Shown: in pieces, positions 1,534 to 22,022 of the stretch | Numbering within the stretch: the stretch's first letter is position 1 | How the letters are laid out: each line of letters opens with the position of its first letter | NCBI GenBank assembly: GCA_022710975.1 | Contig: JAKLGA010000010.1 | Span: forward strand, 1-64,000 | DNA: 64,000 bases | From: Myxococcota bacterium | GTDB taxonomy: Bacteria; Myxococcota; B64-G9 | Direction: 5' to 3' | Notes under the pieces: generated by a model | What the model was told of the DNA's origin: nothing | The model's input: the letters and a program-made list of their open reading frames with translations, nothing else | Databases searched by the model: none | Made by a program: the position numbers and the translations under genes

Positions 1534-2106
1534 CTACTGGCGGCCGCCGGGCAGCAGCCCCTTGGGCGACGCCACCGCGGGCAGGGCCGCGACCAGGGTG
1601 CGCAGCGACTCGTTGGCCTTGTCGCCGAACACCGTCACCTGACCGACCAACTCCGTGGCCATGAGCCTGAAGCAGGTCATCTCCTCGAGGCTACGGCCCT
1701 TCTCGAGCATGCAGTCCGAGGCGCGCTGGGCCATGGCCAGCACCGTCATCCGCTCGATGTGCATCTGCTCAAGTTGCTGCTGGACTGCGTCGAAGGTGCG
1801 TTCCAGGGCCAGCCGGCGCTGGGAGAGCTCCTCCATCTTGATGGTGTAGGTCTTGTCGATGGCAGAGTTCAGCATCCTCGCCTGCTCGCCGATACGCCGC
1901 TCCTCGGCCTCGAGCCTGCGGACCTCGAGCTTGTAGGAGAGTGTCCGGGCGTACACCTCGCCGATGAAGCCGAAGGGGTTGAAGGCCTTCAGCACCGAGG
2001 TCCAGCCGCTCTCTTCGGGGACGGGCAGGCTGGTGACGGGGTCGATGCGGGTGATGTCGGATGGGGCGCCCTGATCCGCTTCCTGGATTCGCCTGGTCTT
2101 GCTCAT
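1534..2106 (-). CDS. Coiled-coil protein of 190 residues, unknown
   Basis: The start is ATG 2106 with AGGAGGTC upstream; reading further upstream would use a weaker start inside the divergent intergenic region. The protein has a short disordered N-terminus, a small hydrophobic patch (FNPFGFIGEVYA, near residues 42-53) and then a long amphipathic helical region (about 60-150) rich in E, R and L. It looks like a structural or scaffold partner of the membrane coiled-coil protein encoded next. It is the first gene of the minus-strand operon 347-2106 and is divergent from the DUF3800-like gene at 2244. Confidence 0.78.
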   Translation of the reverse strand: MSKTRRIQEADQGAPSDITRIDPVTSLPVPEESGWTSVLKAFNPFGFIGEVYARTLSYKLEVRRLEAEERRIGEQARMLNSAIDKTYTIKMEELSQRRLALERTFDAVQQQLEQMHIERMTVLAMAQRASDCMLEKGRSLEEMTCFRLMATELVGQVTVFGDKANESLRTLVAALPAVASPKGLLPGGRQ

Positions 2107-2243
2107 GGCTTCGTGACCTCCTGGTTCACCTTCCAGACGCCTGGCGGCGTTTGCGCCTGACAACATGGCTGGACAATGTCCGGGCCATGCGACTACGCTT
2201 GCACCGACCGCGGGAAGATCCCGGATCAGGAGGAGGGGAGCAG
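2107..2243. promoter_or_regulatory. Divergent intergenic control region
   Basis: This 137-bp gap separates divergent genes starting at 2106 (minus) and 2244 (plus) and must hold promoters for both. It contains the imperfect palindrome GGACAATGTCC near 2172-2182 and the strong plus-strand ribosome binding site AGGAGGAGGGGAG at 2228-2240. No convincing -35/-10 or sigma-54 element was found by eye. Confidence 0.35.
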
Positions 2244-4520
2244 ATGGTGACCCTGCGTGAACGGCTGATCGCCGAGGGCAAGTTGAAGCCACACCCCGAG
2301 ATCGCGTCGCTGCTTGCCAAGCCAGGACCCGGTCCCGAGCAAAAGAAGAGGCAGGCCAAGGCAGTGGAGGTCCAGACCAAGCAGCCGAAGGCCCAGCCTG
2401 CCAAGGCCGTCGAGCGCTACTACCTCGACGAGAGTGGCACCTTCGAGGGTGAGGACGAGTCGCTCGCGGCGGGTTTGCGCGTCTTCGGCCCCGAGCCGGG
2501 CGACCAGGAGCTGGTCGAGCTCTTGGGGAAAGCGCTGAAGGCCTGGGGGTGGCCGCGGCGGCCCTTGCCGCCCGATGGAGTACACGCCACCAAGATGAAG
2601 GATCTGGATCGCGGCGCCTTCACCGCATTCCTCGATGCGCTCCTCAAGGGGTTGGCGCACCATCACGCGGCGGGGCGGCTGGGCGTGTTCCTGGTGCGCG
2701 ACCAGGCACACGTGCACCTCAAGGACCGGAACATCGCCCACGCGGCGGTCCTGGCCCGCGGGCTGGCGAGCGATCTCGCGACCACGCCCGCCGATCTGCC
2801 AGTGCGGGTGGTGGCGGCCGGACGAATGGCGGCCAAGGATGGCATCACCGACACCAGCGAGGCTCTCGGGGTCGTCATCCTCTCGCGGCTCGCCGAGGAG
2901 CTCGCGGTGATGGGCGCAAAGGCGCCGCCCGGTGTGGAGGTTGCAGTCCGGCACATGAAGGGCCAGGACTGGCGCGCGCCGGCCTTCGCCGGCCTCTTCA
3001 TCGCCGACGTGCTCTCGAATCTCATGCTCACCGGCAAGCATGCCTTCGCGCCCCAGCACCAGGTGGCCATGGGCATGTTGCTGCCCGGCTGTCCGCACGT
3101 CGTTCGCCGGGCGGACGAGCGACGGCGAGGACGCCACGTGTTCGAGGAAGCCGGCGCGGCTGGCTACCTCGGCTGGCTGCGCGGGCCGCTGGGGCCCATC
3201 CAGCCGAGCGCCGAGGAGCGCGCGCTCCTCCGCACCGCCCGCAAGCAGGCCGTGCAGCCCGAGCTCCTGGTGCCGACCCTGACCCAGCTGTGCGAGGCGG
3301 CGAACCGTCAGGTGCGAGTCTTCCGCAACCTGAAGGCGGGCCGCCGGCTCGCGGAGGAGGCGCTCGAGCTCGCGCACGTGAGCCTGGAGTCCACCGGCGG
3401 GGAGGAGGTCGGCCGCTTCGCTTACCAGGCGCTCGAGTGTCTGCTGGACGTCTGCAACCACCAGGGCGACGTGGCCGGGGCGGTGGGGGTGATGCGACGC
3501 GAGGCCGAACTGCGGAGGCAGGTGGGGCTGCACGCCCTGGTCGAGAGCTTCGAGTTCCGCAACCGCGCCGCCGAGAGCGCGGTCAACGAGTTCGACTTTC
3601 GTGGCGCAGGCGAGGCGCTCGACGGACTGCGTCGGGAGATCGAGGAGGTCGGGCGGCACTTCCCGCTCGGAGCCAGGGTCGCCACCCTGGGGAGGGTGCT
3701 CAGCCATCGCGCCCAGGTGCACCACTACCTGGGAGAGGACAAGCAGGCCTTGGCGCTCTACGCCGGGGCTGGCGAGCACTACTCCACGCCCCTCGATCGC
3801 GAGATCCTCACCCAACACCGCGTGCGCTCGTTTCTGGGGATGGGTAAGGGGCTGGACGCCTGGGCGGGTATTCGCAGCCTGGGCGTGACCCGTGAGCTGG
3901 CTGGACTGCGCGCGGATGATCCGTTTCTCCTCGATCTGGTGGCTCTCGCGGGCCGCTTCGCGGTGGAGGACGGCCCGGGCTCGAAGCTCAGCTGGTTGCC
4001 CAGGGTCCTCCTGGGCCGCCCTCAGCTCCTCGCTCGCGCGCTGGGCCGAAGCACCCAGTCTGGCTATCCGGGCGCGGCCACGGCTGCCAGCGTGGCGCGC
4101 ATCGCTGCCTTCCTCGGCGACGCGGCGCGCTCGGTCGAATCCACCCTGTGGGCCATGCAGCTCGCCTCCAGGGACGAGGTGCCCACCATGCACGCCATCA
4201 CGCTCGGGGCCGCGCTCGAGGGGCTGGACAACCTGCGCCAGCTCGATGCGACCAAGCGCTCCGAGGCGGCCGAGTTCTTCGGGGTGGCCGAGGCCATGGC
4301 CGAGGTGCTGACCCGCGAGGGTCAGCCCGCGCCGCTCCGCAGCCACTTCCTGCCTGCCCTGGACACCCTCAGGCGCTGGAAGGGCCCGCAGGCCGCGTTG
4401 GCCGAGCCGGCCATCCTGCGCAGGTTGATCCGCAGGGTTCCCTTCGGCCGCGTGGGCGGCTTCCCCCTGGTCTGGGTCGAGAAGGCAGCGCAGCTCGAGC
4501 GCTCTAGGCGAGCTCGATGA
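2244..4520 (+). CDS. DUF3800-like protein with C-terminal TPR-like helical region, 758 residues
   Basis: The N-terminal 55 residues are basic and disordered. Residues 58-70 (ERYYLDESGTFEG) carry the YxDESG motif typical of DUF3800 proteins, a family with an RNase H-like fold and conserved acidic residues, here D62 and E63. The region to about residue 300 is compatible with that fold (RMAAKDGITDTSEALG, then GLFIADVLSNLM). From about 340 to the end the protein is a series of amphipathic helices rich in A, L, E and R, consistent with TPR-like repeats. ATG 2244 is chosen because AGGAGG precedes it. The nuclease role is inferred from the family; the fusion to a long helical region is unusual. The 3' end overlaps the convergent gene at 4504 by 17 bp. 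Confidence 0.82.
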   Translation: MVTLRERLIAEGKLKPHPEIASLLAKPGPGPEQKKRQAKAVEVQTKQPKAQPAKAVERYYLDESGTFEGEDESLAAGLRVFGPEPGDQELVELLGKALKAWGWPRRPLPPDGVHATKMKDLDRGAFTAFLDALLKGLAHHHAAGRLGVFLVRDQAHVHLKDRNIAHAAVLARGLASDLATTPADLPVRVVAAGRMAAKDGITDTSEALGVVILSRLAEELAVMGAKAPPGVEVAVRHMKGQDWRAPAFAGLFIADVLSNLMLTGKHAFAPQHQVAMGMLLPGCPHVVRRADERRRGRHVFEEAGAAGYLGWLRGPLGPIQPSAEERALLRTARKQAVQPELLVPTLTQLCEAANRQVRVFRNLKAGRRLAEEALELAHVSLESTGGEEVGRFAYQALECLLDVCNHQGDVAGAVGVMRREAELRRQVGLHALVESFEFRNRAAESAVNEFDFRGAGEALDGLRREIEEVGRHFPLGARVATLGRVLSHRAQVHHYLGEDKQALALYAGAGEHYSTPLDREILTQHRVRSFLGMGKGLDAWAGIRSLGVTRELAGLRADDPFLLDLVALAGRFAVEDGPGSKLSWLPRVLLGRPQLLARALGRSTQSGYPGAATAASVARIAAFLGDAARSVESTLWAMQLASRDEVPTMHAITLGAALEGLDNLRQLDATKRSEAAEFFGVAEAMAEVLTREGQPAPLRSHFLPALDTLRRWKGPQAALAEPAILRRLIRRVPFGRVGGFPLVWVEKAAQLERSRRAR

Positions 4521-5037: not shown

Positions 5038-5673
5038 ATGAAGCAGGCGAACGAGACGATCCGGGGCGAGGTGGTGGCGCGGTTCTTCTCCCAGGCGCAG
5101 CCGGACTGGGCGAGCGCGGATGGCCGCGAGGTGCAGGAGGCCCTGTTCGCCTTCCTGTGGAGCCTCGAGCTGGTGCGGCTCCCGGGTTGCGGCCAGGCGG
5201 ACCGCGAGAATCTGGCCATGGAGGCCTGGCACAAGCTCTTCGACCACGTCCGCGCCGGGAAGCCGGTTCGCGCCCGGAGCGCGGGCGAGCTCCGCGCCCT
5301 GTGCCGCATCACCCTGAAGAACCTCTGGCGGGACGGGCTGCGGGATGAGAAGCGCTTCCACCACAAGCCCGTGGAGGGTCTCGGCCAGCCCGTGGACGAC
5401 GACGAGGGCGAGGGCGGCCTGGCCAGGACCCCGGCGGCGCTCAGGGTGGAGCCCGAGGCCGAGGAGGCGGTCGACCGGCGGCGGGACGTCGAGCGGGTGC
5501 GCGCGGGCGTCGAGGCGGTGGGGGAGAAGAACCCGCGCCTCCGCCGGGTCCTGGAGCTCGAGCTCGCGGAGGCCAGCACTGAGGAGCTGATGGCGGCGCT
5601 CGGGGTGTCCTCGGCCAACGCCCACCAGCTCCGCACCCGCGCCCGCAAGGCGCTCCGGGAGGCGTTCGCGTGA
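5038..5673 (+). CDS. ECF-like RNA polymerase sigma factor, 211 residues
   Basis: The product has the layout of a small sigma-70 family factor. A region 2-like helical segment (about 35-105) includes ALCRITLKNLWRDGLRDEKR, which resembles the DNA-melting helix. A glycine/acid-rich linker of about 35 residues follows. A C-terminal helix-turn-helix (STEELMAALGVSSANAHQLR, 182-201) and basic tail (ARKALREAFA) resemble region 4. ATG 5038 follows AAGGAGGC. It heads the cluster 5744-8605 and may direct its transcription. A second protein of similar design is encoded at 41030. Confidence 0.8.
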   Translation: MKQANETIRGEVVARFFSQAQPDWASADGREVQEALFAFLWSLELVRLPGCGQADRENLAMEAWHKLFDHVRAGKPVRARSAGELRALCRITLKNLWRDGLRDEKRFHHKPVEGLGQPVDDDEGEGGLARTPAALRVEPEAEEAVDRRRDVERVRAGVEAVGEKNPRLRRVLELELAEASTEELMAALGVSSANAHQLRTRARKALREAFA

Positions 5674-5743
5674 TGGCTCGCTGTCAGAACCCGGTTCTGG
5701 AGCCCGTCTGGAGCGCATGACGGCCCACGAAGGAGGTCGAAAC

Positions 5744-6256
5744 ATGGCGCCGAGCGAAGCCTACCTCAAGGATCTCTGGTCGCGGACGCGGGTCGCGCTG
5801 GGCGAGCTGCCCGGCTGGATGGTCGCGCTCCTCGAGCGGGTGCCCGCGCTCATCGCCGAGAGCGAGCGGGACGCGGACCGGCGCCAGCGCCGGGAGGTGT
5901 ACCTGGGCCTGGCCACCCTCGTGGCCCGGCACACGGGCGGGAGCCTGCCGCTGTGCCTGGACGCCGTGCACCAGGTGCTTGGCGAGCGCGAGCCGGAGTT
6001 GCTCGAGGCCGGCGCGCCCTGCTCGCCCGCGCTGGTGGAGGAGGCCCGCGGCCACCTCGTCCGGGTGCGGGTGCGCTACTCGAAGGCTCGCGCCGGCCGC
6101 AGCCAGCGCACCATCGAGGCCTACATCGTCGCGGGAGGAAACGTCCGCGTGGTGCACCTGGAGCGCATGGTGGACTGGGACTGGCTCCCGGCCGAGGTGC
6201 GCGAGGGCTTGCTCGGGGAGCCGGGCAGGCAGGCCATGGAGTTCGAGCTGCTCTGA
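5744..6256 (+). CDS. Soluble protein of 170 residues with shared LPxxVRxxL C-terminal module
   Basis: ATG 5744 is chosen for its AAGGAGGTCG ribosome binding site, over the ATG 27 bp upstream. The N-terminal 110 residues are helical (YLKDLWSRTRVALGELPGWM...), and a beta-hairpin region (VRVRYSKAR, then TIEAYIVAGGNVRVVHLERM) follows. The last 30 residues contain DWDWLPAEVREGLL, the module that recurs in the next four genes. It has no membrane segment, unlike the next three products. No known family is recognised. It is the first member of the five-gene set after the sigma-like gene and probably acts with the AAA+ ATPase at 7598. Confidence 0.78.
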   Translation: MAPSEAYLKDLWSRTRVALGELPGWMVALLERVPALIAESERDADRRQRREVYLGLATLVARHTGGSLPLCLDAVHQVLGEREPELLEAGAPCSPALVEEARGHLVRVRVRYSKARAGRSQRTIEAYIVAGGNVRVVHLERMVDWDWLPAEVREGLLGEPGRQAMEFELL

Positions 6257-6272
6257 ACACAGGAGGACGAAC

Positions 6273-6749
6273 ATGGAACCCATCACCCTCATCGTCACCA
6301 TCCTGGCCGTCGGCTTGGGCGTCGCCAGCCTGTTCTGGGGGCAGATCCTCGCCTGGTGCGAGGAGCACCTGCTGCCCTTCCTCGACCGCCGGATGCCCTT
6401 CCTGTCGGGGATCGCGCGCAGCGCGCTGGTGCTGCTCGACAGGGCGGTGACCACGGTGCGGCGCGCGGCCCGGGCAGCCTGGCAGCACCTGCGGGCCGCG
6501 CTGCTCAAGACCGTGATGATCATCCGCCGCACCTCGGACGCGCGCTGGGTCCAGCGGTTCACCAGCTGGGCCATCACGCAGCTGGAGGACGGGCGAGAGC
6601 AGCCTCTCGAGGTGGTGACCGAGCGGGAGGTGGCCTGGGAGGATCTGCCAAACGACCTGCGCGAGGCCCTGGTCCGGCGGTGCCAGACGGTCGAGGTGGA
6701 CGTGACCGCGGCCCGGGACGCAGAGCTGGAGCTCGAGGTCGGCCACTAG
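6273..6749 (+). CDS. Membrane protein of 158 residues with shared C-terminal module
   Basis: Residues 4-28 (ITLIVTILAVGLGVASLFWGQILAW) form an N-terminal membrane segment. A basic helical region follows (TTVRRAARAAWQHLRAALLK), with a second amphipathic stretch near 105. The C-terminus has the beta-strand plus AWEDLPNDLREALV module shared with neighbours. ATG 6273 has CAGGAGGA upstream and lies 16 bp after the previous stop codon. No known family is recognised. The anchor suggests that the module faces the cytoplasm near the membrane. Confidence 0.78.
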   Translation: MEPITLIVTILAVGLGVASLFWGQILAWCEEHLLPFLDRRMPFLSGIARSALVLLDRAVTTVRRAARAAWQHLRAALLKTVMIIRRTSDARWVQRFTSWAITQLEDGREQPLEVVTEREVAWEDLPNDLREALVRRCQTVEVDVTAARDAELELEVGH

Positions 6750-6770
6750 CGGCCGGAGAGGAGGACGGAC

Positions 6771-7253
6771 ATGGAGACGAACCAGGTCATGGAGGCGGGC
6801 TTCGGCGGCTCCTGGCTGCTGGGGCTTGGGCTGCTGGCGGCGCTCGTGGCGCTGTGGGCCCTGTGGGCGCGCCGCCGGCCGGGCGGCGTCTCGGGGGCGG
6901 CCCTCAAGGCCTGGGTGGAGGACAAGGTGGCCGAGGCGCTCTCGCCGCTCCTCGGCGCGAGCCATGGGGCGGTGCTGGCAGAGCTCCGCTCGCACGAGGA
7001 TCGCGGACTCCGCGATCGGGTGGCCGGAGCGCTCGCAGGTGTCGAGCTCGCCTTCCACCGCCAAGGGGCCGGGGGACTGGTGGAGCTCACGCTCGCGGTC
7101 GCACCGCGGGAAGGGTCGCTGCGGGCCTGGCGGCGGATGCTCCGCTGGGAGGACACGCCGGACGAGGTGCGCGGACGCATGCTGCGTGAGCGCGCAAGGA
7201 GCTTCGTTCTGCCCTGGCACCCGGACTGGGCGGGCGCGCAGGGCGGGAGGTGA
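6771..7253 (+). CDS. Membrane protein of 160 residues with shared C-terminal module
   Basis: One membrane segment at about 14-34 (WLLGLGLLAALVALWALWARR) is followed by a cytoplasmic-type domain with alternating helices and strands (VELAFHRQGAGGLVELTLAVAP). The C-terminus contains LRWEDTPDEVRGRML, matching the recurring module with T in place of L. AGAGGAGG lies upstream of ATG 6771. The gene sits 21 bp after its predecessor and 3 bp before its successor, so the cluster is probably one transcript. Function unknown. Confidence 0.78.
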   Translation: METNQVMEAGFGGSWLLGLGLLAALVALWALWARRRPGGVSGAALKAWVEDKVAEALSPLLGASHGAVLAELRSHEDRGLRDRVAGALAGVELAFHRQGAGGLVELTLAVAPREGSLRAWRRMLRWEDTPDEVRGRMLRERARSFVLPWHPDWAGAQGGR

Positions 7254-7256
7254 GCC

Positions 7257-7580
7257 ATGTTCTTCCTGCCGTTCCTCCTCGGTCTCGCTGCCGGCGTTGG
7301 CTTCGGGGCCCTGGTCTCGGGCTGGGACGAGATCGTGGACCTCATTTCGGACTTCCTGCACAGCCACGGATGGCAGCGCTCGTGGCTCATGCGCGCCCTG
7401 GTGGTCTTCGACCAGCTGGTGTGCGGGTTGCGCCGGCTGATCGTGGTCCAGCGGGCGGGCGAGGAGCCGGTCCTGGTCGAGGAACGCGAGCTCGAGGAGG
7501 ACGAGCTCCCGGACGATGTCCGGGCGGCGCTCGGGGAGCGGGAGCGGGTGGTGGTCGACGTCCTGGAGCAGCTCGGTTGA
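7257..7580 (+). CDS. Small membrane-associated protein of 107 residues with shared C-terminal module
   Basis: The N-terminus (FFLPFLLGLAAGVGFGALVSG, 2-22) is a membrane or amphipathic anchor. The middle is helical (WMRALVV-like, WLMRALVVFDQLVCGLRRL), and the C-terminal 40 residues consist of a strand and the module EEDELPDDVRAALG. The ATG lies 3 bp after the upstream stop, which argues for translational coupling. It is the smallest member of the set, essentially anchor plus module. Function unknown. Confidence 0.75.
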   Translation: MFFLPFLLGLAAGVGFGALVSGWDEIVDLISDFLHSHGWQRSWLMRALVVFDQLVCGLRRLIVVQRAGEEPVLVEERELEEDELPDDVRAALGERERVVVDVLEQLG

Positions 7581-7597
7581 ACGCGAAGAGGAGTCCA

Positions 7598-8605
7598 ATG
7601 GCCATCGGCTGGGATAAGGCGGAGAGCATCCGGGCGGGCGGGGCGAGCGTCAGGGCCCGGGCGAGCGAGCCGCGTCTCGCCGGCCTGGAGCCCGAGGAGC
7701 CCCGGGCCGGGCTCGACGAGCTGGTGCTCGCCGAGGCCACCCGCGAGCAGGTGGAGCGGGCCATCGCGGTCGTGCGTCATCGCGACCTGCTCATGGACGG
7801 CTGGGGGCTCGGCGAGATGCTGCCCTGGGGCCGCGGCCTGGCGCTGAACCTGTACGGCCCGCCGGGCACGGGCAAGACCCACTGCGCCCACGCCATCGCC
7901 CGAGCGCTCGGCCGGAAGATCCTCGAGGTGGACTATGCCGAGCTCGAGTCGAAGTACGTGGGTGACACCCCCAAGAACATCAAGGCGGCCTTCGACCGGG
8001 CCCAGGAGACCGGCGCGATCCTGTTCTTCGACGAGGCAGACAGCCTGCTCGGGCAGCGGCTGACCGCGGTCACCCAGTCGGCCGACCACGCGGTGAACGT
8101 GAGCCGCTCGGAGCTGCTGAAGGCGCTCGAGCGCTTCGAGGGGGTGGTCGTCTTCGCCACGAATCTGGCGCGGAACTACGACCGGGCCTTCGTGCGCCGC
8201 ATCCACTTCCACGTGGAGCTCCCGCTGCCTGACCGGGCCGGCCTCGAGCGGCTCTGGGCGGCGAAGCTGCCCGCGAGGCTCCCCCGCGAGCCGGGCGTGA
8301 CCCCGGCCGCGCTGGCGGGGCTCTCGGAGGGCCTCTCGGGCGGTGAGCTGGTGTCGGCCCTGCGAGGCGCCGCCTCCCGCGCGGTGCTGCGCACCCAGGG
8401 GCTGGGCCCGGTGCTGGTCGAGGACTTCGCCACCGCCCTGGCCGAGGTGCGGAAGGCGAAGGACGAGGTGGGCAGGGAGCCCGGCGCGCCGGCGCCCGCG
8501 CCCGCCCGGACACGGGTCCGCGCCTTGCCTTTCGTTGAGCTGCCCGAGGACGTGAGGGAAGAGCTCTTGGATCCGGATCGATGCCTCGATCCGGAGGAAC
8601 ACTGA
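7598..8605 (+). CDS. Classical AAA+ ATPase with C-terminal LPxxVRxxL module, 335 residues
   Basis: Walker A is GPPGTGKT (87-94) and Walker B FFDEAD (143-148). KYVGDTPKN (119-127) corresponds to the pore-loop/ESxYVG region of FtsH/spastin-like AAA proteins. An arginine-finger region (RAFVRRIHFHVELPLP) and a C-terminal lid domain follow. The final 30 residues (PFVELPEDVREELLDPDR) repeat the module found at the ends of the four upstream products. The start at ATG 7598 follows AAGAGGAG. Such ATPases remodel or extract protein substrates; the shared tail suggests that the small membrane proteins are partners, assembly factors or substrates. The gene ends 4 bp before the convergent CARF-sigma54 gene. 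Confidence 0.93.
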   Translation: MAIGWDKAESIRAGGASVRARASEPRLAGLEPEEPRAGLDELVLAEATREQVERAIAVVRHRDLLMDGWGLGEMLPWGRGLALNLYGPPGTGKTHCAHAIARALGRKILEVDYAELESKYVGDTPKNIKAAFDRAQETGAILFFDEADSLLGQRLTAVTQSADHAVNVSRSELLKALERFEGVVVFATNLARNYDRAFVRRIHFHVELPLPDRAGLERLWAAKLPARLPREPGVTPAALAGLSEGLSGGELVSALRGAASRAVLRTQGLGPVLVEDFATALAEVRKAKDEVGREPGAPAPAPARTRVRALPFVELPEDVREELLDPDRCLDPEEH

Positions 8606-8609
8606 GGAT

Positions 8610-10238
8610 CTACCGGCGCTTCGCTGCTTCCTGGATGGCCTTGACGGTCAGGCCGTAGCGGCGGAGGAATTTGCTGATGCTATCGGAGGGGTTCTTGCAC
8701 TCGGCCAGGACTTCCTTGGCAGCATCAGAACCGTACTTGGAGGAAGCACACGATTCGACGACGGCTTCGAGCTCCCGGCGTTTCGCAAGCGGGATTCGAT
8801 CCAGCTCGGCTCTCGGGAGGAGCTCGTCGAGCAGTCGGGCACCGATCTCACGGCGAGGAGCCTGCTTTCGTCGCCAGGCTTCCCTGCGCTTCTCGATCTC
8901 TGCTTCTGCAACGGCTTCGGTGATGATGCCGTCGACGGACAGGTCCACCATCCTGCCCACGGAGGCGAGGAGCTCCCTGATGTTGCCTGGCCACGGTGCC
9001 TTCTTCGCCCAGCGAAGGAATCTGTCCAGGGGTTTCCCAGCGAATCGAATAGGCCTCTTCTTCCCGCGCCTCTCGATCTCGGCGAGCACCAGCCCTTCGA
9101 TTTCCTCGGGGTGCATCCGGAGCGGATGGAGCTCGAAGACGTGGACGTCGAGGCGTTCCCATAGGTCGCGCCTGAATTCGCCCTCGACGACGAGGGAGGC
9201 GATGTCCTTGTTCGTGGCGCAGATCAGGAAGAAGTCCACCGGCTTCTCGACGTCCGCGCCGAGCGGCCTGCACCTCTTGTCCTCGAGGACCTTGAGCAGC
9301 ATCCCCTGGGCCTCCGGATCCAGGTCCGCGACCTCGTCGAGAAAGAGGGTTCCGCCGTCCGCGGACAAGATGGCGCCCGTCCGCCTCGCCAGCGCACCGC
9401 TGAATGCGCCTTTCTCGTGGCCGAAGATCTCGGAGCGCACCAGCTCGCCGCGGAGCGCTGCGCAGTTGACCTCGAAGAGCCGGCCCTTGCGAGGATGCAC
9501 CGCGCGTTGCTCGAGTTGTTCGTGGATCGCCCGGGCGATGAACGTCTTCCCGGTCCCGGGCGCACCCAGCAGGACGATGGTGTCGTCGGTTCGCTCCGCC
9601 ACCTCGAGGATCTGCGCGAGCAGCGCCTTCTGCTTCTCGCTCCGGACAGGGGCGCCGCCGGCCAGCTCGTCGAGCCGCCGCACGCGATCGTTCTCGATGC
9701 GCTTCCGAATGGGATCGTAGGCGGACACGTCGAGGTCGATGGGCTTGACTCCTGCGGGCTCGGCCTCTGCCTGGAGTTGGCCCGCTTTCTCGGGGATGGT
9801 CTGGACGAGGTTCACCGGCAGCACCCGGGAGACCGCGAGTAGGAACAGGCAGGCTTTGAACACCTCTGTCCCCGTGCTCAGATGGAACCAGTAGTCCTCG
9901 TGGGCGAGATCGAATGGGTATTCCCGCGCGAGCTTCGAGAGCGCCTCGTGGACGCTCGGTAGATCCCAGGGCTTGCTGCCCAGATCGATCGTGCGACGTT
10001 CGACGGTCAGACCAGGCAGCGCCGCGAGGATGGTCTGCTCGAGCTCGAGCGCTCTCCCGGCGTGGCGCTCCTGGTGGAGCAACACGAGCTTGTGAAGCGC
10101 GGGCTTGTCACGCGGCCAGCCCTTACAGAGCTCGAGGGTGTATCGGAAGATCCTGCCGGCATCATGATCCTTGTGGTGTCTCCCGTCCTTTTGGTCGCCG
10201 AACAGGCTGAACACGACCTGCGGTCTCCCCTTCGTCAT
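8610..10238 (-). CDS. RtcR-family CARF-sigma54 transcription activator, 542 residues
   Basis: Residues 1-150 form a Rossmann-like CARF domain with HLSTGTEVFKACLFLL (119-134) followed by VNLVQTIP, the signature seen in RtcR. Residues 190-430 are an AAA+ sigma-54 interaction domain: Walker A GAPGTGKT (225-232), GAFSGA loop (277-282, the GAFTGA motif) and Walker B FLDEVA (299-304). The C-terminus (about 480-542) is basic and probably DNA binding. In RtcR the CARF domain senses an RNA-derived ligand and controls RNA repair genes; no rtcA or rtcB is present here. Its ATG overlaps the cas6 stop by 4 bp, so it is co-translated with cas6. It probably controls cas6 itself or the adaptation operon; no sigma-54 promoter was identified by eye. 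Confidence 0.92.
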   Translation of the reverse strand: MTKGRPQVVFSLFGDQKDGRHHKDHDAGRIFRYTLELCKGWPRDKPALHKLVLLHQERHAGRALELEQTILAALPGLTVERRTIDLGSKPWDLPSVHEALSKLAREYPFDLAHEDYWFHLSTGTEVFKACLFLLAVSRVLPVNLVQTIPEKAGQLQAEAEPAGVKPIDLDVSAYDPIRKRIENDRVRRLDELAGGAPVRSEKQKALLAQILEVAERTDDTIVLLGAPGTGKTFIARAIHEQLEQRAVHPRKGRLFEVNCAALRGELVRSEIFGHEKGAFSGALARRTGAILSADGGTLFLDEVADLDPEAQGMLLKVLEDKRCRPLGADVEKPVDFFLICATNKDIASLVVEGEFRRDLWERLDVHVFELHPLRMHPEEIEGLVLAEIERRGKKRPIRFAGKPLDRFLRWAKKAPWPGNIRELLASVGRMVDLSVDGIITEAVAEAEIEKRREAWRRKQAPRREIGARLLDELLPRAELDRIPLAKRRELEAVVESCASSKYGSDAAKEVLAECKNPSDSISKFLRRYGLTVKAIQEAAKRR

Positions 10239-11245
10239 GCGTCCTCCTGATCTACCTCGATCCGCCCCAGGCCGAGCGCGGTGCCGCGGCCGAGGTGCAG
10301 GAGCGCGCCGAGCTCGAGCCAGTCGCGCGCCGCGGGCGGGCAGGACCCGTACACGAGCTCGCCCACCAGCCCCTCGTGCGGCACGGCCTGGCCCTGGCGA
10401 CGGGAGTCGCGGAGCCAGCACACCTTCCGCACCAGGGCCTCGAGGAGCTCGGCCTCGTCCGCGAGATCGACCGCGGCCACCCGGGCGGGCAGGGCCGGCA
10501 GGTCCGTGTGCGCGGTCAGGAGCTGGCCGACCCGCCGCACCGCAGCCAGCACGAGCTGGTACAGACTGGGCGCCTTCTCGACGAGCTTTCCGCGCTCGCG
10601 GAGGGCGAGCGGGGTGACGAGCCGGACCCGGAGCGTGGCGGATTTCCGCCTGCCTCCGGTCCCAGGCGTGTAGGGTGCGGGCGGGGCGAGCTCGATGGGA
10701 GCCTCCCGGTCGCGGTCCAGGACCCGCCGCTCTGCGCCGTCCGGGAGGAGCTGCCAGGCCGCGTCGAGCCGGAGCGGCCAGTACTGGGGGCCGTCGCTGC
10801 CTTGCGCCGCGTCGTCCATGCGGCGGATGGCGAGGAGCGCCATGGGCAGGTGCAGGGCCGGCTGCCCCACGCAAGTGAACGGCACATCCACTTCCTCGCC
10901 CCGGCCGAGCTCGAGCGCCGCGGGCGGCAACCCGGCCACGAACGGGTGGGGTGCGTGGTCCCCGTGGGCGCCGACCGCGCCTACCGGGCCGGGAGTCTGG
11001 AACAGGCTCCCGAAGGCGCAGGCGTGGAGCGCGAGACAGCGGCCGCAGTCCTGCTCGGGCAGGCCGCACACCAGCCGTCGAAGGTGGGCGCCCAGCCGGC
11101 TGTGGAAGCGATCGCCCGGGTTGACCTGGATACGGGTGTCCGCGGTCGCGGCGAAGCGCAGCACCAGCCGGGTGAGCGGCAGCGGCGGGATCTCTGTGGC
11201 CCGGCCCCGCGCGCGCTTCGTCCCTGTCGCCCTGGTCGCCAACAT
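10235..11245 (-). CDS. cas6: Cas6 pre-crRNA endoribonuclease, 336 residues
   Basis: The C-terminal segment (HLGRGTALGLGRIEV, 317-331) is the glycine-rich loop diagnostic of Cas6 RAMP proteins, and GLVGELVYGS just before it fits the ferredoxin-like fold. The N-terminal half has a Cys cluster (C60, C67, C70, C76), typical of the longer Cas6 subfamily (DUF2276-like). Cas6 binds the repeat hairpin and cleaves 3' of it, leaving an 8-nt 5' handle, here ATTGAAAC. ATG 11245 follows AGAGGAGA. A catalytic His cannot be assigned safely by eye; H48 in DRFHSRLGAH is one candidate. The 3' end overlaps the CARF-sigma54 gene by ATGA, and the 5' end is divergent from the primase operon. Confidence 0.88.
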   Translation of the reverse strand: MLATRATGTKRARGRATEIPPLPLTRLVLRFAATADTRIQVNPGDRFHSRLGAHLRRLVCGLPEQDCGRCLALHACAFGSLFQTPGPVGAVGAHGDHAPHPFVAGLPPAALELGRGEEVDVPFTCVGQPALHLPMALLAIRRMDDAAQGSDGPQYWPLRLDAAWQLLPDGAERRVLDRDREAPIELAPPAPYTPGTGGRRKSATLRVRLVTPLALRERGKLVEKAPSLYQLVLAAVRRVGQLLTAHTDLPALPARVAAVDLADEAELLEALVRKVCWLRDSRRQGQAVPHEGLVGELVYGSCPPAARDWLELGALLHLGRGTALGLGRIEVDQEDA

Positions 11246-11382
11246 GCCGCGTCTCCTCTGATCGGAGGCATTGTCGCGGATGCGCCCGGCGTCCGCAAGC
11301 GCAGCGGCCGTCAGACCGGTCCCGCGCGCGGCGTCTGGATCCTCGAGGGCAGAAAGGCCCACGCCCTCGCGGGAGGTGCCCG
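11246..11382. promoter_or_regulatory. Divergent control region between cas6 and the primase-cas2-cas1 operon
   Basis: The 137-bp gap must hold promoters for both directions. It is very GC-rich, with GGGAGGTG (11372-11379) as the plus-strand ribosome binding site and AGAGGAGA for cas6. A weak GG-N10-GC arrangement can be found on the minus strand, but its other bases do not match the sigma-54 consensus, so no promoter is assigned. Confidence 0.35.
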
Positions 11383-13281
11383 ATGGAGTCGCGAACCCTG
11401 GCCGAGCTCGTCACCCTGGCCGATACCGATCCCGACGCTTGCCGCGCCGCCCTGGACGCGCTCGTGCCCGATGGGCTGACACCCGCGGAGCTCGTGGGGC
11501 TGGCCGAGCTGGCCGTGCGGCTCGGCCGGGCCGAGGCGGCCATTCGGTTCCTGGACGCGGCCCTGGCCCAGGACTCTGGCCACGCACCCGCGCTCCGCCG
11601 GCTGTGCGATCTCCGTCGCGACCAGGGCGACACCGAGCGCGCTGCGGCGCTCCTCGCCAGGCTCGCGGACCTCGGCGATCACCAGGCCGGGCTCGAGGAG
11701 ATCGCGCTCCTCCTGGAGGCGGGCCGCCTGCCCCAGTCCGAGCAGGCCCTGGCCAGGCTCGCCCCGCGCTGCCCGCCTGAGCTCCAGTCCCGGCTCCTCA
11801 GCCTCACCGTGCGTTTCGAGGCGGCCATCGAGGGCCGGACCACGGACGAGGCGCCGGACGAGCCGGACGCCAACGGGGATGCCGCCGGCCCACCCGTGCG
11901 TTTGGCTTCCGACGCCGAGCTGGTGGCGCTCGCCGACTTGTTCGCCGGCCGCGAGGGGGTGCACGCCCGCCAGTGGAAGGGGCCGGACGGACGCGCGGGC
12001 TACAGCCCGGTGCACACGCCGCTCACCCCGGCGCTGGTCCGCGAGCACCTGCTGGGCGCCATCACCCTTGGCACCTACGTGGTCCGCCGGGACGGGGGCG
12101 CCAACTTCCTGGCGCTCGATGTGGATCTCACCCGGCCCGCCCTGGAAGCGCTGGGCCGCGGCCCGCGGCGGGCCTTCGAGGACGTGTTGGCCAAGGCCCT
12201 GGCCTTCGCCCGAAGGCTCGCGTCCGCGCTCCGGGGCTTCGGGCTCTCGCCCGTGCTCGAGGACAGCGGCCACAAGGGCTACCACGCCTGGGTGTTCTTC
12301 GCCGAGCCCTGGTCCGCGGCCCTGGCCCGCAGGCTCGCACGCGCTGCCCTGGGACTGGCCGGGCCGCCGCCCGAGGGGGTGGCGGTGGACGTGTTCCCGG
12401 CCCAAGGCCGGGTGCCGGCCGACGGGCTCGGGAACCTGATCAAGCTGCCGCTCGGCGTTCACCGGAAGACCGGCCGCAAGAGTCTGCTCCTCGGTGAGGA
12501 CGGGAAGCCGCTCCGCGATCCCATCCGAGCGCTCGTGGCTACGCCTCGGGCCTCCGCCGAGGCGCTCGAGGCCGCGCTCGCGCGGGCCGAGGCGGAGCTG
12601 GCGGGACGCCTGGCGAGCGGCGCACCCGACGCCGGGCGCGGCGACGAGGACGGCACCGGCGGCGACGACCCGCAGGGTGACCCGTCCCGGGCGCGTCACT
12701 GCCGGCCGCAGGCCGCGCCCGTGCGGCCGGACTACGCCCTGGACTCCGATCCGGAGGTGAAGGCGCTGCTCGACCGCTGCGCCCCGCTCCTCGGCATCGT
12801 GCGCGTGGCGCGTGCGGGCCGTCCGCTCACGCACGACGAGCGGGCGGTGCTCACCTTCACCCTGGGCCACCTGACCCACGGCCCGGACGCGGTGAACACC
12901 CTGCTGCCCGCGGCCGAGCTCGGCACGGACGGCCCGGTCCTCAAGTCGCGGCTCCGCGGCCAGCCCATGGGCTGCCGGAAGATCCGCGCCCGGCTGGGGC
13001 TCCAGCCCGACGAGGAGCGCTGCGACTGCCGCTTCGATCCCACGCTCGGCGCCTACCCGCACCCGCTCCTGCACCTCGCCGCCCTGTGGGCCGAGGAGGC
13101 CGAGGAGCGCCGGGCGGCCCTGGCCGCGGTCGGGGCGCAGTCCGCGCTGGCCGCCGAGGCGTCCGTCGCGGTCGCTTCGCGCGCCGCCCCGGCGCAGGCC
13201 CAGGACACCCCTGCCGCGCTCGCTTCGTCCGGGGGCAAGCTGATCCCCTTCCCGGGCCGCGGCCGTCCGGGCCGGGACTGA
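11383..13281 (+). CDS. CRISPR-associated primase-polymerase (AEP family) with helical N-terminal region, 632 residues
   Basis: Residues 1-150 are TPR-like helices. The primase core follows: D246 and D248 in LALDVDL (motif I), SGHKGYHAW (295-303, the S-x-H-type motif II) and D336 in VDVFP with IKLPLGVHRKTG (353-364, motif III). These are the hallmarks of archaeo-eukaryotic primase-polymerases. The C-terminus contains a Cys/His-containing segment (CRKIRARLG ... CDCRF) like that of related PrimPols. CRISPR-associated primase-polymerases are known next to cas1/cas2 in type III loci and are thought to help make or process spacer DNA. ATG 11383 has GGGAGGTG upstream, and cas2 starts 8 bp after the stop. 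The product could supply DNA synthesis during spacer acquisition. Confidence 0.9.
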   Translation: MESRTLAELVTLADTDPDACRAALDALVPDGLTPAELVGLAELAVRLGRAEAAIRFLDAALAQDSGHAPALRRLCDLRRDQGDTERAAALLARLADLGDHQAGLEEIALLLEAGRLPQSEQALARLAPRCPPELQSRLLSLTVRFEAAIEGRTTDEAPDEPDANGDAAGPPVRLASDAELVALADLFAGREGVHARQWKGPDGRAGYSPVHTPLTPALVREHLLGAITLGTYVVRRDGGANFLALDVDLTRPALEALGRGPRRAFEDVLAKALAFARRLASALRGFGLSPVLEDSGHKGYHAWVFFAEPWSAALARRLARAALGLAGPPPEGVAVDVFPAQGRVPADGLGNLIKLPLGVHRKTGRKSLLLGEDGKPLRDPIRALVATPRASAEALEAALARAEAELAGRLASGAPDAGRGDEDGTGGDDPQGDPSRARHCRPQAAPVRPDYALDSDPEVKALLDRCAPLLGIVRVARAGRPLTHDERAVLTFTLGHLTHGPDAVNTLLPAAELGTDGPVLKSRLRGQPMGCRKIRARLGLQPDEERCDCRFDPTLGAYPHPLLHLAALWAEEAEERRAALAAVGAQSALAAEASVAVASRAAPAQAQDTPAALASSGGKLIPFPGRGRPGRD

Positions 13282-13289
13282 GGCGCGCC

Positions 13290-13568
13290 ATGCTGTACGT
13301 GGTCTGCTACGACATCGCCGACGAACGCCGGCGGCGGCGGGTGGAGAGGACGCTCAAGGGCTACGGCCACCGGGTCCAGGAGAGCGTGTTCGAGGCTGAG
13401 CTGGACGACAAGAAGCGGCTCGAGCTGGAGCTCAAGCTCGCCAAGGTGATCGACCAGGCCGAGGACAACCTGCGCTTCTACCGCCAGTGCGGCGGCTGCC
13501 GCCTGGTGGTCGAGGTGCTGGGGGTGGGCGGCCTGCCTGAGGGCCAGCCCAGGCTGATGGTGGTGTAG
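13290..13568 (+). CDS. cas2: Cas2, 92 residues
   Basis: The N-terminal strand MLYVVCYDIAD with the conserved Asp (D8) is typical of Cas2, as are the ferredoxin-like layout (RRRRVERTLKGYGHRVQESVFEAEL) and the ARG/TYR-rich segment NLRFYRQCGGC. Cas2 dimers bridge Cas1 dimers in the integrase complex. The gene lies between the primase and cas1 in one operon (8-bp and 20-bp gaps). The length is normal for the family. Confidence 0.95.
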   Translation: MLYVVCYDIADERRRRRVERTLKGYGHRVQESVFEAELDDKKRLELELKLAKVIDQAEDNLRFYRQCGGCRLVVEVLGVGGLPEGQPRLMVV

Positions 13569-13588
13569 GCCGCCGGAGAGGAGGCACC

Positions 13589-14716
13589 GTGCGCCGGCTG
13601 TACGTGGTGGAGCCGGGCGCCCGGGTGACCCGCGAGGGCGAGCGCATCCGGGTGCTGGTCGGCGAGCAGGAGGTGGAGAGCGTGCGCGCGGACGAGCTTG
13701 CTCAGGTGGTGGTGGTGGGCTCGGCGGGGCTGAGCACGCCTGCCATGCAGGCGCTGCTCAAGGCCGGAGCCGAGGTGGTGCTCTTGACCCGCAACGGCCG
13801 CTTCCTCGGGAGGCTGTGCTCGGGCCTGAGCCCCAGCGCCCGAGCCCGCCACTGCCAGTACGCCCGGCTTCAGGACCCGACCGCCCGTCTGGGCTTCGCC
13901 AGGCGGGTGGTGGCGGGCAAGATCGCCAACCAGGTGCGGCTCCTCCGTCGTCACCAGAGCAGGCTCAAGGACCCCTCGGTGGCGAGCGCGCTGCCGCGCA
14001 TGCGCCAGGCCGGCGCGGACGCGCTCACCGCGGCCGACGTGGACATCCTGCGTGGGCTCGAGGGCGCGGCCGCCGCGGCCTACTTCGGGGTATTCGGCCG
14101 GCTGCTCAAGGCCGAGGGGGTGGCCTTCGAGCGCCGGGTGCGCCGCCCGCCGCCCGATCCGGTCAACATCCTGCTCTCCTTCGGCTACACGCTGCTCGGC
14201 AACCTGGTGCACGCGGCCGTGGAGACGGCCGGGCTCGATCCCTACCTGGGCGCGCTGCACGAGCTCCGCGCGGGTCGGCCGAGCTTGGTGCTCGACCTCC
14301 TCGAGGAGCTCCGCCCGGTGGTGGTGGACACGGCCGTGCTGCGGGCGTTCAACACCCGCGCCATGCTGCCCGGGGACTTCGTCTCCATCACCGACGATGC
14401 CCCGGGGGTGGAGGACGCCTGGGAGCGGGAGGCCTGGGAGGCGCGCGAGGCCGCTGACGGTGCCGGAGATGCCAGCGCCGGAGAGGCCGGGCAAGACGGC
14501 GCGGAGCCGGCCGGCCCGCGGCGCTCGATGGTGCTCACCCGGGTCGGGGTGAAGAAGTGGATCGCCTGCTACGAGCGGCGGCTCGAGGAGCAGGCCTGGT
14601 ACGAGCCGCGTGGCCAGCGGCTATCCCTGCGCGAGGTGGCCCAGGCGCAGGCGTATCGCCTGGCCCGGCACTTCGAGGGGCAGGAGGAGTACACGGCCTT
14701 CGAGTCGCCGGAGTGA
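13589..14716 (+). CDS. cas1: Cas1 integrase, 375 residues
   Basis: The catalytic triad is intact: E158 in GLEGAAAAAYF, H224 in ALHELRAGRPSL and E239 in DLLEELRP (with D236). The N-terminal beta domain (RRLYVVEPGARV...) and the C-terminal helical domain have normal order. A Gly/Ala/Glu-rich insert of about 45 residues (270-312) separates the catalytic part from the final helices. The start is GTG 13589 after GAGAGGAGG; no ATG fits. Cas1 with Cas2 integrates new spacers at the leader end, which lies directly downstream. No cas4 gene is present in the locus. Confidence 0.97.
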   Translation: MRRLYVVEPGARVTREGERIRVLVGEQEVESVRADELAQVVVVGSAGLSTPAMQALLKAGAEVVLLTRNGRFLGRLCSGLSPSARARHCQYARLQDPTARLGFARRVVAGKIANQVRLLRRHQSRLKDPSVASALPRMRQAGADALTAADVDILRGLEGAAAAAYFGVFGRLLKAEGVAFERRVRRPPPDPVNILLSFGYTLLGNLVHAAVETAGLDPYLGALHELRAGRPSLVLDLLEELRPVVVDTAVLRAFNTRAMLPGDFVSITDDAPGVEDAWEREAWEAREAADGAGDASAGEAGQDGAEPAGPRRSMVLTRVGVKKWIACYERRLEEQAWYEPRGQRLSLREVAQAQAYRLARHFEGQEEYTAFESPE

Positions 14717-15090: not shown

Positions 15091-15097
15091 GTGGTGC

Positions 15098-18000
15098 GTC
15101 GCAGGACCTTCCCCGAGATGAAGGGGATTGAAACCATGTCGGGCCCGTACAGAGCGCACTCGAGCGCCCCGAGCTGTCGCAGGACCTTCCCCGAGATGAA
15201 GGGGATTGAAACGCCTTCTGCTTGGCCGTCTTGCCGACCACGGTCGTGCCGCGTCGCAGGACCTTCCCCGAGATGAAGGGGATTGAAACTCGATGAGCTG
15301 CGCGCACGAACCCAAGGTCCAGTAGTGTCGCAGGACCTTCCCCGAGATGAAGGGGATTGAAACCAGGTGGCGCTGAACTGGAGGTTGCTGTGCTCGGCTC
15401 TCGTCGCAGGACCTTCCCCGAGATGAAGGGGATTGAAACAATTCATCGCCGGCCAGAATCCGGTGGATAGCGATGACGCTAGTCGCAGGACCTTCCCCGA
15501 GATGAAGGGGATTGAAACGCGGATCGTGTCTGCCATGCGGTCCCTGGAACGCAGCTCGGTCGCAGGACCTTCCCCGAGATGAAGGGGATTGAAACTTGCC
15601 ATGACGCTCATATCGCACCTCCTGCGATTGGTCGCAGGACCTTCCCCGAGATGAAGGGGATTGAAACACAGCTTTCCGCCGCCTGCGCAAGATTGCCATG
15701 ACACTCGTCGCAGGACCTTCCCCGAGATGAAGGGGATTGAAACGCTTCCTTTCTGCAATAGATACCGTTCGGTGTGTCCTTGTCGCAGGACCTTCCCCGA
15801 GATGAAGGGGATTGAAACGGGCCGCACACGTCAGCCGCGAGTTTGTCGAGGTCGCTGTCGCAGGACCTTCCCCGAGATGAAGGGGATTGAAACTCCATTC
15901 CCGCGGCATGTCCTGGGCCTCGCCCAGGTCCACGAGTCGCAGGACCTTCCCCGAGATGAAGGGGATTGAAACGGCTGGTACGGCGGCTGCTGAGGCTGCC
16001 CCGGCGCCGTGTCGCAGGACCTTCCCCGAGATGAAGGGGATTGAAACGTCCCTGGCCTGGATCGCGTCGTACTCAGCCCGGTCGCAGGACCTTCCCCGAG
16101 ATGAAGGGGATTGAAACTCTGCAGCCGCCGCCTTTGCCTTGAGGATCAGCCACATCGTCGCAGGACCTTCCCCGAGATGAAGGGGATTGAAACCGCTGTG
16201 GCTGGCGTATCGGTCGCTCTGGATCTTGTCGCAGGACCTTCCCCGAGATGAAGGGGATTGAAACGCAGCACGGCCCCGAACACGATCACGCGCCGCGTCC
16301 CGTCGCAGGACCTTCCCCGAGATGAAGGGGATTGAAACTCATCCCTTCCTTGTTCGAACGTTCAGATCGTGGTCTCCAGGTCGCAGGACCTTCCCCGAGA
16401 TGAAGGGGATTGAAACTGAGCACACGCAGGGACATCAGGTGCCGGATAGCAGCCGCGTCGCAGGACCTTCCCCGAGATGAAGGGGATTGAAACTTCGCCC
16501 CGCTCAGCTTCGGCGGCCTCGTGCCGCACGGGAGTCGCAGGACCTTCCCCGAGATGAAGGGGATTGAAACCAGGCTTGCCCGGGCACTCTCGTTTCCAAG
16601 CCTACCCGTCGCAGGACCTTCCCCGAGATGAAGGGGATTGAAACGGGCGAGCCTCGTCCTGCCGGAGCGACGCCATCAGCGTCGCAGGACCTTCCCCGAG
16701 ATGAAGGGGATTGAAACGGGATCACGATCTGCACGGCCTCCGTGCGGTCCGGGCGGTCGCAGGACCTTCCCCGAGATGAAGGGGATTGAAACTCCTCGAC
16801 CAGCTCATGGAAGCGGCCCAGGTCCAGGCGCGTCGCAGGACCTTCCCCGAGATGAAGGGGATTGAAACAACTTGCGCTCGCTGATGCGCTGGTCCGCGGT
16901 CGGCCGGCGCGTCGCAGGACCTTCCCCGAGATGAAGGGGATTGAAACTTCAATCCAACATTCAAGGCACGGGCTTTATGAAGTCGCAGGACCTTCCCCGA
17001 GATGAAGGGGATTGAAACAACACGTCCTTGTGGAACAGGTCGCCCATCGAGCAGACGAGTCGCAGGACCTTCCCCGAGATGAAGGGGATTGAAACCGCAG
17101 CGGCTGGTCGAGCACCTCCTCGCGGAAGGTGACGTCGCAGGACCTTCCCCGAGATGAAGGGGATTGAAACTTCACCTTGTTGGCGAGCAGAGCGAACAAG
17201 GGCTCCCGTCGCAGGACCTTCCCCGAGATGAAGGGGATTGAAACGTCGAGAAGTTGCGGACGTGGAGGCTGCAGGTCGCAGGACCTTCCCCGAGATGAAG
17301 GGGATTGAAACCTCGAGATCGTCCAGCCGCGCCTCGTCCAGGTGCGGGTCGTCGCAGGACCTTCCCCGAGATGAAGGGGATTGAAACAACACGTCCTTGT
17401 GGAACAGGTCGCCCATCGAGCAGACGAGTCGCAGGACCTTCCCCGAGATGAAGGGGATTGAAACGTTGCCCTTGTGGTAGGCCAGATCGCAGTTGTCCAG
17501 GGGTCGCAGGACCTTCCCCGAGATGAAGGGGATTGAAACTATTCCTTTCTTCGAGCGTTGGGATCAGATCGTGGTCGCAGGACCTTCCCCGAGATGAAGG
17601 GGATTGAAACTCAGTCCCGAGGGTCCGAGCCCGTCACGGGCTCATCGCACGTCGCAGGACCTTCCCCGAGATGAAGGGGATTGAAACTCATCAACATCGT
17701 TTCGCCGCCTGCGAAGGATTGCCATGGTCGCAGGACCTTCCCCGAGATGAAGGGGATTGAAACTGAGACACCGTTTGGTGTGTCTTTGCCCCAGAAGGCC
17801 GCGTCGCAGGACCTTCCCCGAGATGAAGGGGATTGAAACCACGGGCACCCACGTGGCGAACAGTCGTTTGCACGCCGTCGCAGGACCTTCCCCGAGATGA
17901 AGGGGATTGAAACCTGAACCCGAACTCCGTCGTCTTGGCGTAGGCCCGGATCACAGTCGCAGGACCTTCCCCGAGATGAAGGGGATTGAAACATTGGCTG

Positions 18001-21000: not shown

Positions 21001-21780
21001 TCGCAGGACCTTCCCCGAGATGAAGGGGATTGAAACGATGTTCTCCCTGGCATTGGCCACCAGGCGCTGGCGTCGCAGGACCTTCCCCGAGATGAAGGGG
21101 ATTGAAACGCCGTGCGGCCTCGGGCCTCCGGGTGCTGCTCGAGCGTCGCAGGACCTTCCCCGAGATGAAGGGGATTGAAACGCCGTGCGGCCTCGGGCCT
21201 CCGGGTGCTGCTCGAGCGTCGCAGGACCTTCCCCGAGATGAAGGGGATTGAAACTTCCATCCAACGTCCGTGCGGGGTCCATTCCCGCGGCGTCGCAGGA
21301 CCTTCCCCGAGATGAAGGGGATTGAAACGACCCGGACCCGGACCCGGACCCGGACCCGGACCCGTACCCGGACCCGTACCCGGGTCGCAGGACCTTCCCC
21401 GAGATGAAGGGGATTGAAACTTGGCGGCCCAGGCCGGGTCCTCGCGGTGCTTCTTGGCCGTCGCAGGACCTTCCCCGAGATGAAGGAGATTGAAACGCCT
21501 TGCGCAGGTCGTCCATCCACCTGTTCAGGGCGTCGCAGGACCTTCCCCGAGATGAAGGGGATTGAAACGCAGCGCGCAGCGGTAGGCGTGGCAGGCGGTG
21601 GCCGTCTCGTCGCAGGACCTTCCCCGAGATGAAGGGGATTGAAACCAGCCTGGGTCACAAGCCGTAGCATGCAGCGTTGAGTCGCAGGACCTTCCCCGAG
21701 ATGAAGGGGATTGAAACAGCGCGGCGCAGCTCGTCGGGTGCGAGAGCATCCAGCGGAGTCGCAGGACCTTCCCCGAGATG
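15098..21780 (+). CRISPR. Long CRISPR array, 37-bp repeat, 90 repeats by hand count
   Basis: The repeat is GTCGCAGGACCTTCCCCGA followed by GATGAAGGGGATTGAAAC. A TCCCC/GGGGA stem with loop GAGATGAA precedes the 3' tail ATTGAAAC, the usual crRNA 5' handle after Cas6 cleavage. Repeats begin at 15098, 15176, 15253 and so on to 21758; I count 90, the last broken after GATG at 21780. Spacers are mostly 34-42 nt (mean period about 75). Sequence variants occur at 18907 (AAAGGG) and 21460 (AAGGAG). Two spacers are exact duplicates of others (17019-17058 and 17388-17427; 21109-21144 and 21182-21217), and one of 55 nt is low-complexity (21329-21383). Transcription should run from the leader at the left. 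Apparent ORFs on both strands are repeat artefacts. Confidence 0.99.
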
Positions 21781-21896
21781 ACCCTTGGGCTGCAGCGGGT
21801 AGTTTGCGAGTGCGAGTCCGAGGTGCATGACCGTCCCGTGCTAGACGCACGCCCAAGGACGGCAGAGGCATTGGGTAAAGGCGAGGGTGTCTGCCG
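21781..21896. repeat. Element X, copy 1 (116 bp), inside the last repeat
   Basis: The final repeat is intact up to GATG (21780). It is then interrupted by 116 bp and resumes as AGGGGATT at 21897. The insert begins ACCCTTGGGCT and ends with a CGGCAGA ... TCTGCCG hairpin. ACCCTTGGGC can also pair with GCCCAAGG in the middle. A second copy of the same length lies at 22023-22138. The outer parts are nearly identical between copies, while about 50 bp in the middle differ. It could be a small palindrome-bearing mobile element or a structured RNA. Confidence 0.75.
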
Positions 21897-21924
21897 AGGG
21901 GATTTACCGCAGGACCTTCCCCGA

Positions 21925-22022
21925 CAGCGAAGCCGATGCGCAACTTGCATGGGCTGAGCAGTGGTCACGCCAGGTGGTTGGAGCGTGTCGTGGTAGCGCC
22001 TACCCCGTAGCGTGACCAGATG
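21925..22022. repeat. Element Y, copy 1, in a repeat loop
   Basis: The repeat 5' part GCAGGACCTTCCCCGA (21909-21924) is followed by about 98 bp beginning CAGCGAAGCCGATGCG and containing GAGCAGTGGTCACGC. The insert ends GCGTGACCAGATG, directly before element X copy 2. TGGTCACGC and GCGTGACCA form a perfect 9-bp stem. The same layout with different but complementary stem bases appears in copies 2 and 3. Confidence 0.78.

Follow-up and report, generated by a model that had tools for sequence, protein, structure and literature searches.

The window, a 64,000-nucleotide stretch of a Myxococcota genome, contains an operon of six forward-strand genes, each preceded by a ribosome-binding site. The first gene (5038..5673, +) encodes a 211-aa divergent ECF sigma-like regulator. 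A preliminary description of this DNA had called it sigma-like, and its product did match TIGR02937 (E=3e-7) but below the curated cut-off, so the likeness to sigma factors is only distant; Sigma70_r4_2 was matched at E=0.006. It is followed by p2 (5744..6256, +; 170 aa), p3 (6273..6749, +; 158 aa, TM-FWxxI family), p4 (6771..7253, +; 160 aa), p5 (7257..7580, +; 107 aa, TM-WDxI family) and a short classical AAA ATPase (7598..8605, +; 335 aa). The results of hydropathy analysis showed a single N-terminal hydrophobic helix in each of p3, p4 and p5 (Kyte-Doolittle 2.1-2.3) and none in p2 (1.1), and the last product matched PF00004 (AAA) at 5.2e-28, in agreement with the earlier assignment of three membrane-anchored proteins, one soluble protein and one AAA+ ATPase. 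Between the sigma-like gene and p2 lies a perfect 15-bp palindrome, CAGAACCCGGTTCTG (5685..5699). Its exact copy is unique in the window, and copies with up to three mismatches were not clearly above chance there; it is a weak, possible candidate for an operator. A sigma-54 site scan upstream of the operon gave a best match of 8/10 at 4975, a raw score from which we do not conclude that the neighbouring RtcR-type activator governs these genes.

The products of the genes at 5744, 6273, 6771, 7257 and 7598 had been reported to end in closely similar motifs, and the coordinates, tails and shuffling tests agreed with this: the tails carry WLPAEVREGLL (p2), DLPNDLREALV (p3), DTPDEVRGRML (p4), ELPDDVRAALG (p5) and ELPEDVREELL (ATPase). 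The module consists of a probable beta strand, often with W-x-[DE] at its end, followed by [LT]P-x-[DE]-[VL]-R-x-x-[LM]; p2-p5, four of the five, have a second strand after this motif core. The copies are VRVVHLERMVDWDWLPAEVREGLLGEPGRQAMEFELL in p2 (6143..6253, +), LEVVTEREVAWEDLPNDLREALVRRCQTVEVDVTA in p3 (6606..6710, +), SLRAWRRMLRWEDTPDEVRGRMLRERARSFVLPW in p4 (7116..7217, +), PVLVEERELEEDELPDDVRAALGERERVVVDVLEQLG in p5 (7467..7577, +) and a shortened copy behind a predicted disordered linker in the ATPase (8507..8602, +). Pairwise tail alignments scored above 500 shuffles in 10/10 pairs (p 0.002-0.022). We then built leave-one-out profiles, with four tails as the model and the fifth tested among 1751 six-frame ORFs. 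The results showed rank 1 for p2 (E 8e-4), p3 (9e-6), p4 (0.044) and p5 (0.005), while the ATPase tail, the weakest of the five, ranked 4 (E 0.21), so that it is a likely but less secure member of the module family by sequence. The genes neighbouring the operon, like the sigma-like gene that leads it, lack the module, as had been described. Outside the operon the motif core occurred six times in 255 predicted genes (~84,000 aa), and two identical homologues were the only proteins in which it lay close to a C-terminus, which argues against random occurrence.

The relationships among the partner proteins bear on where the tail came from. p5 is a distant paralogue of p3, the two being paralogous over their length, which would fit an origin of p2-p5 by duplication and domain shuffling, with a tail that has no common partner. 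Profile comparison showed, however, that p2 and p4 have little in common with p3 outside the tail, and the ATPase tail sits on a domain unrelated to p2-p5; the tail has therefore been retained or transferred independently of the rest, and we consider common ancestry alone a very improbable explanation.

The motor motifs of the ATPase are intact and mostly invariant among its relatives: Walker A GPPGTGKT, Walker B FFDEAD, an aromatic pore-loop KYVG, a sensor ATN and an RR finger. It has no protease domain, and the operon has no protease gene. The predicted model (pLDDT 82) showed an AAA core and a disordered stretch at ~294-312; past this low-confidence linker, the LPEDVRE motif is modelled as a short helix. 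In a Foldseek search the model matched proteasomal ATPases, spastin, Msp1, p97 and Vps4, which as modelled folds point to substrate-threading motors. Such a motor might read the tail as a mark for unfolding or turnover, as Msp1 or ClpX would, with the copy on the ATPase as a pseudo-substrate and the operon as a toxin checked by its own AAA protein. The intact motifs, the Msp1 and spastin matches, the position of the tail on a predicted disordered linker and the small-residue TM helices, as found in membrane effectors, are consistent with this, but the missing protease gene argues against it and the p5 tail was modelled at low confidence only (the p5 structure, pLDDT 55, was poor and was set aside). 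We regard this reading as quite unlikely.

To place the operon among relatives, a tblastn search of plasmids gave two sets, short AAA genes (~295-380 aa) set among small hypothetical genes and longer ones adjoining contractile injection genes, and a tree split the two by a 100/100 branch (seven proteins in the long set). Short-AAA loci were found in Streptomyces NBC_00467 (L051), Synechococcus (L053), Comamonas (L054), Moraxella osloensis (L056), Planktothrix (L057), further cyanobacterial genomes (L096-L101, L103, L104), two IMG/VR contigs (L110, L111) and, where its record ends, Moraxella phage Mcat5 (L058); those of Streptomyces, Comamonas and Moraxella are carried on plasmids. Two other loci with short AAA genes of the same family differ in appearance. 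In L128 (4848-10605) and L059 (703-9249) a helical protein of 380-414 aa comes after the AAA gene and then, judged by eye, a MotA/ZorA-like protein, with an OmpA/MotB-like protein also in L128 and a helicase-like protein upstream in L059; both look Zorya-like with an AAA gene added.

Small proteins of the p3/p5 type recur in the relatives: their small-residue TM helix is followed by [FYG]W-x-x-[IV], by a variable middle and mostly by a related tail, such as ETVTTKTITVDQLPEKIRKKLEKSQGNQVDISDEL (Comamonas) and YVLTKEIEEEDVPDYIRALEEGNEVDLTEEL (L111). The Streptomyces and L110 proteins have a diverged LP core. p3 and p5 have the features of this TM-FWxxI tail family; p4 and p2 share the tail alone. 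A profile made from six relatives only, run on the 1751 ORFs, returned p3 first (5.9e-5) and p5 second (1.4e-3), with the third at 0.55. Profile-profile comparisons, whose E-values are pairwise and not database values, linked the tails of the window TM proteins to those of Comamonas/Moraxella/L111 (E=3.4e-5, 44 columns), the latter to the tails of the Nostoc-like TM proteins (E=1.4e-4; full length E=1.9e-9), and p3/p5 to the Streptomyces TM protein (E=6.5e-7). The common tail thus also occurs on related small proteins elsewhere. The AAA gene was adjacent or at most four genes away in 8/9 loci with a p3/p5-type TM protein, and the Streptomyces locus keeps the order p2-p3-AAA, with p2 weakly resembling a 171-aa protein at the same place in the gene order. 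The module is real and the genes stay together in relatives, the two points on which the preliminary description had staked its proposal; for the same reason, a docking or assembly role for the module is reasonable on the sequence evidence.

A nine-sequence profile led to a new cyanobacterial locus in G349 (L140, E 6.5e-21), with the same small-gene pair and the same NB-ARC-type regulator as the Nostoc-like loci but no AAA gene nearby. Both small proteins in this locus (L140 4327-6696) bear the module and the regulator gene is divergent; repeated aroA-like pieces lie alongside, suggesting rearrangement.

The number of tail-bearing partners varies among loci. One module-bearing small protein was found in Moraxella, Comamonas and L111, and two in the Nostoc-like loci, where the LP tail is also on a second, soluble protein (e.g. 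VTAEVKKVTNIPADIVAEMKSKGRVELSFKF), as on p2. Planktothrix-type loci have up to five paralogous small proteins with a common tail different from that of the window, some with two copies, and a 60-residue version is repeated inside L103 s294 and L104 s244. Because several-protein tail sets occur in both Nostoc-like and Planktothrix-type loci, multiplication of tail-bearing partners is, by sequence comparison, a repeated theme. These repeats and sets, together with the presence of the module on all five window products, would suit a self-associating module that joins p2-p5 and the ATPase into a mixed membrane polymer, with no docking into the ring. A module copy on the ATPase was found in the window locus only, however, and elsewhere AAA proteins stay linked to module proteins without carrying it themselves. 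A two-sided interaction between copies is therefore not the general rule, direct contact between tail and AAA protein is favoured over purely homotypic pairing, and we hold assembly by self-association to be rather unlikely. The shared tag on the ATPase and its partners, as first described, accordingly stands for the window locus, whereas relatives carry it on small proteins only. By eye, AAA and TM proteins of the Moraxella and Synechococcus lineages seemed to have a tail in common, but the profile test was not significant and this was set aside.

The distribution of the system was assessed by further searches. In a set of 195 genomes from the phylum, the TM family was found in the window genome only, and no AAA protein came closer than a partial-length match at 46% identity. 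The system is sparse and has probably moved horizontally. Matches of 600-900 aa to the AAA protein in the phylum were mostly eCIS-type or other proteins and were set aside. First viral scans with the window AAA protein and with p3, and searches of plasmids for p3, p5 and p2, yielded no relatives because the sequences are too diverged, and AAA-based and profile searches were needed. The five-tail profile alone did not recover the relatives' tails, and profile A4 gave no matches in 296 Bacteroidota genomes, in a search without a positive control. Convincing matches in Pfam and PHROGs were missing for all 35 small proteins searched, and the small proteins of the window had none in NCBIfam or PADLOC either. 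No description of the system was found in the open literature, with subscription journals mostly outside coverage. The claim that the plan has no described precedent holds to that extent, but an AAA protein with several tail-sharing partners is not confined to the window and recurs elsewhere with diverged or different tails.

CRISPR genes lie beside the operon. Convergent to it is an RtcR-type CARF sigma-54 activator gene (8610-10238; PF06956 2e-31) that overlaps cas6; genes for an AEP-TOTE primase-domain protein and for Cas1 come next, and then a CRISPR array with over 80 repeats of ~37 nt (8610-14716, 15096-22000). An activator of the RNA-repair type (RtcR) thus stands within a cas gene group. 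In relatives, WYL regulators adjoin the L111 and Mcat5 loci, an NB-ARC regulator adjoins the Nostoc-like cyanobacterial loci and a CHAT gene adjoins the Streptomyces locus. WYL, NB-ARC, CHAT and RtcR/cas neighbours are typical defence companions, and carriage on plasmids and viral contigs likewise belongs to a context of defence type. On the other side of the operon, the window contains a large protein (2061-4520, +) with YYLDESGTFEG, which by eye resembles a DUF3800-type start and had no Pfam match. Three reverse-strand genes (599-2292, -) encode a zinc-ribbon-like protein of 91 aa, a TM and coiled-coil protein of 208 aa and a helical protein, with no family match above cut-off for the group.

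Taken together, these findings suggest, from sequence, an undescribed membrane machine, probably for antiviral defence. We infer that the ATPase is a hexamer to which the partners dock and by which they are remodelled. In the proposed mechanism, which we take to be the simplest one, a hexameric classical AAA ring would drive the machine, and the three TM proteins and soluble p2 would assemble at the membrane. The common C-terminal tails would recruit the ring, so that the partners are engaged, and ATP hydrolysis would lead to their extraction, rearrangement or remodelling. The ATPase's own flexible tail copy might serve as a tether to the assembly or as a built-in competitor. Defence might act by membrane perturbation or by controlled shut-down upon infection, and the operon's own sigma-like regulator would switch it. 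As a whole, the model of a hexameric-AAA membrane machine, with the common tails as the interaction element, remodelled partners and probably a defence function, strikes us as about evenly balanced between right and wrong. Counting against it, the module copy on the ATPase is the weakest of the five and absent from the AAA proteins of other loci, and L140 keeps both small proteins with no AAA gene nearby; the lack of small-protein homologues elsewhere in the phylum and the poor p5 model weigh against it too.

This two-part plan is thus found repeatedly, in Cyanobacteria, Actinobacteria, Proteobacteria and viral contigs as well as in the window genome. Should the AAA ring take hold of its partners by the tail, the locus would offer a compact and testable five-gene model of protease-free AAA motors acting on membrane assemblies, and its short sequence signature would mark a candidate new defence family. 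More tentatively, and on the doubtful side, the loci may represent an undescribed class of membrane-acting bacterial immune machine, in which a protease-free AAA ring grips several paralogous single-TM proteins via a common tail and remodels them, by a logic like that of Vps4/ESCRT-III. This class would have spread on plasmids, among cyanobacteria and in prophage-like contigs, and in the window locus the motor too would have acquired the tail.

We compared the operon with known systems. EACC1 is a small single-TM protein with a small-residue helix, encoded beside an NTP- or peptidase-linked effector (2020, PMC7159879). It resembles the present small proteins in this helix; its partner, however, is a caspase-fold protein rather than a lone AAA protein (PMC7159879), and Pfam had no match for the present proteins. 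The ternary systems and the membrane two-gene system of Kaur et al. were considered and rejected, as their components differ from those of the window operon. The closest defence family for the ATPase (PADLOC, NCBIfam) was IetA, the AAA protein of the anti-phage system IetAS, in which it is paired with the S8 subtilisin IetS. IetA models were matched by 24/24 short AAA proteins, by the window ATPase at 9e-31, but the latter scored 110.6 bits, below the NCBIfam IteA equivalog cut-off of 510. A scan of the operon and the genes adjoining it showed no S8 subtilisin-like protease, and small TM partners stand in place of IetS. The AAA proteins of eCIS (Afp15/Pvc15-like) belong to the same superfamily, with 38-44% identity in the ATPase core. 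They are mostly 430-900 aa long and lie beside sheath, tail or tape-measure genes, whereas the window ATPase has 335 aa, no sheath or baseplate genes adjoin its operon, which sets it outside the eCIS, and the short AAA proteins form a tree group apart from those of eCIS (100/100).

In Vps4/ESCRT-III and Msp1, a classical AAA protein acts on several small membrane-associated proteins via C-terminal motifs. Vps4, spastin and Msp1 are structural matches of the window ATPase, and the likeness drawn is one of mechanism, not of homology between the partners. The window ATPase has neither an MIT domain nor a TM segment, and an ESCRT-III fold was not shown in its partners. The novelty lies in the tail and in the set of partners; the motor itself belongs to a known type.
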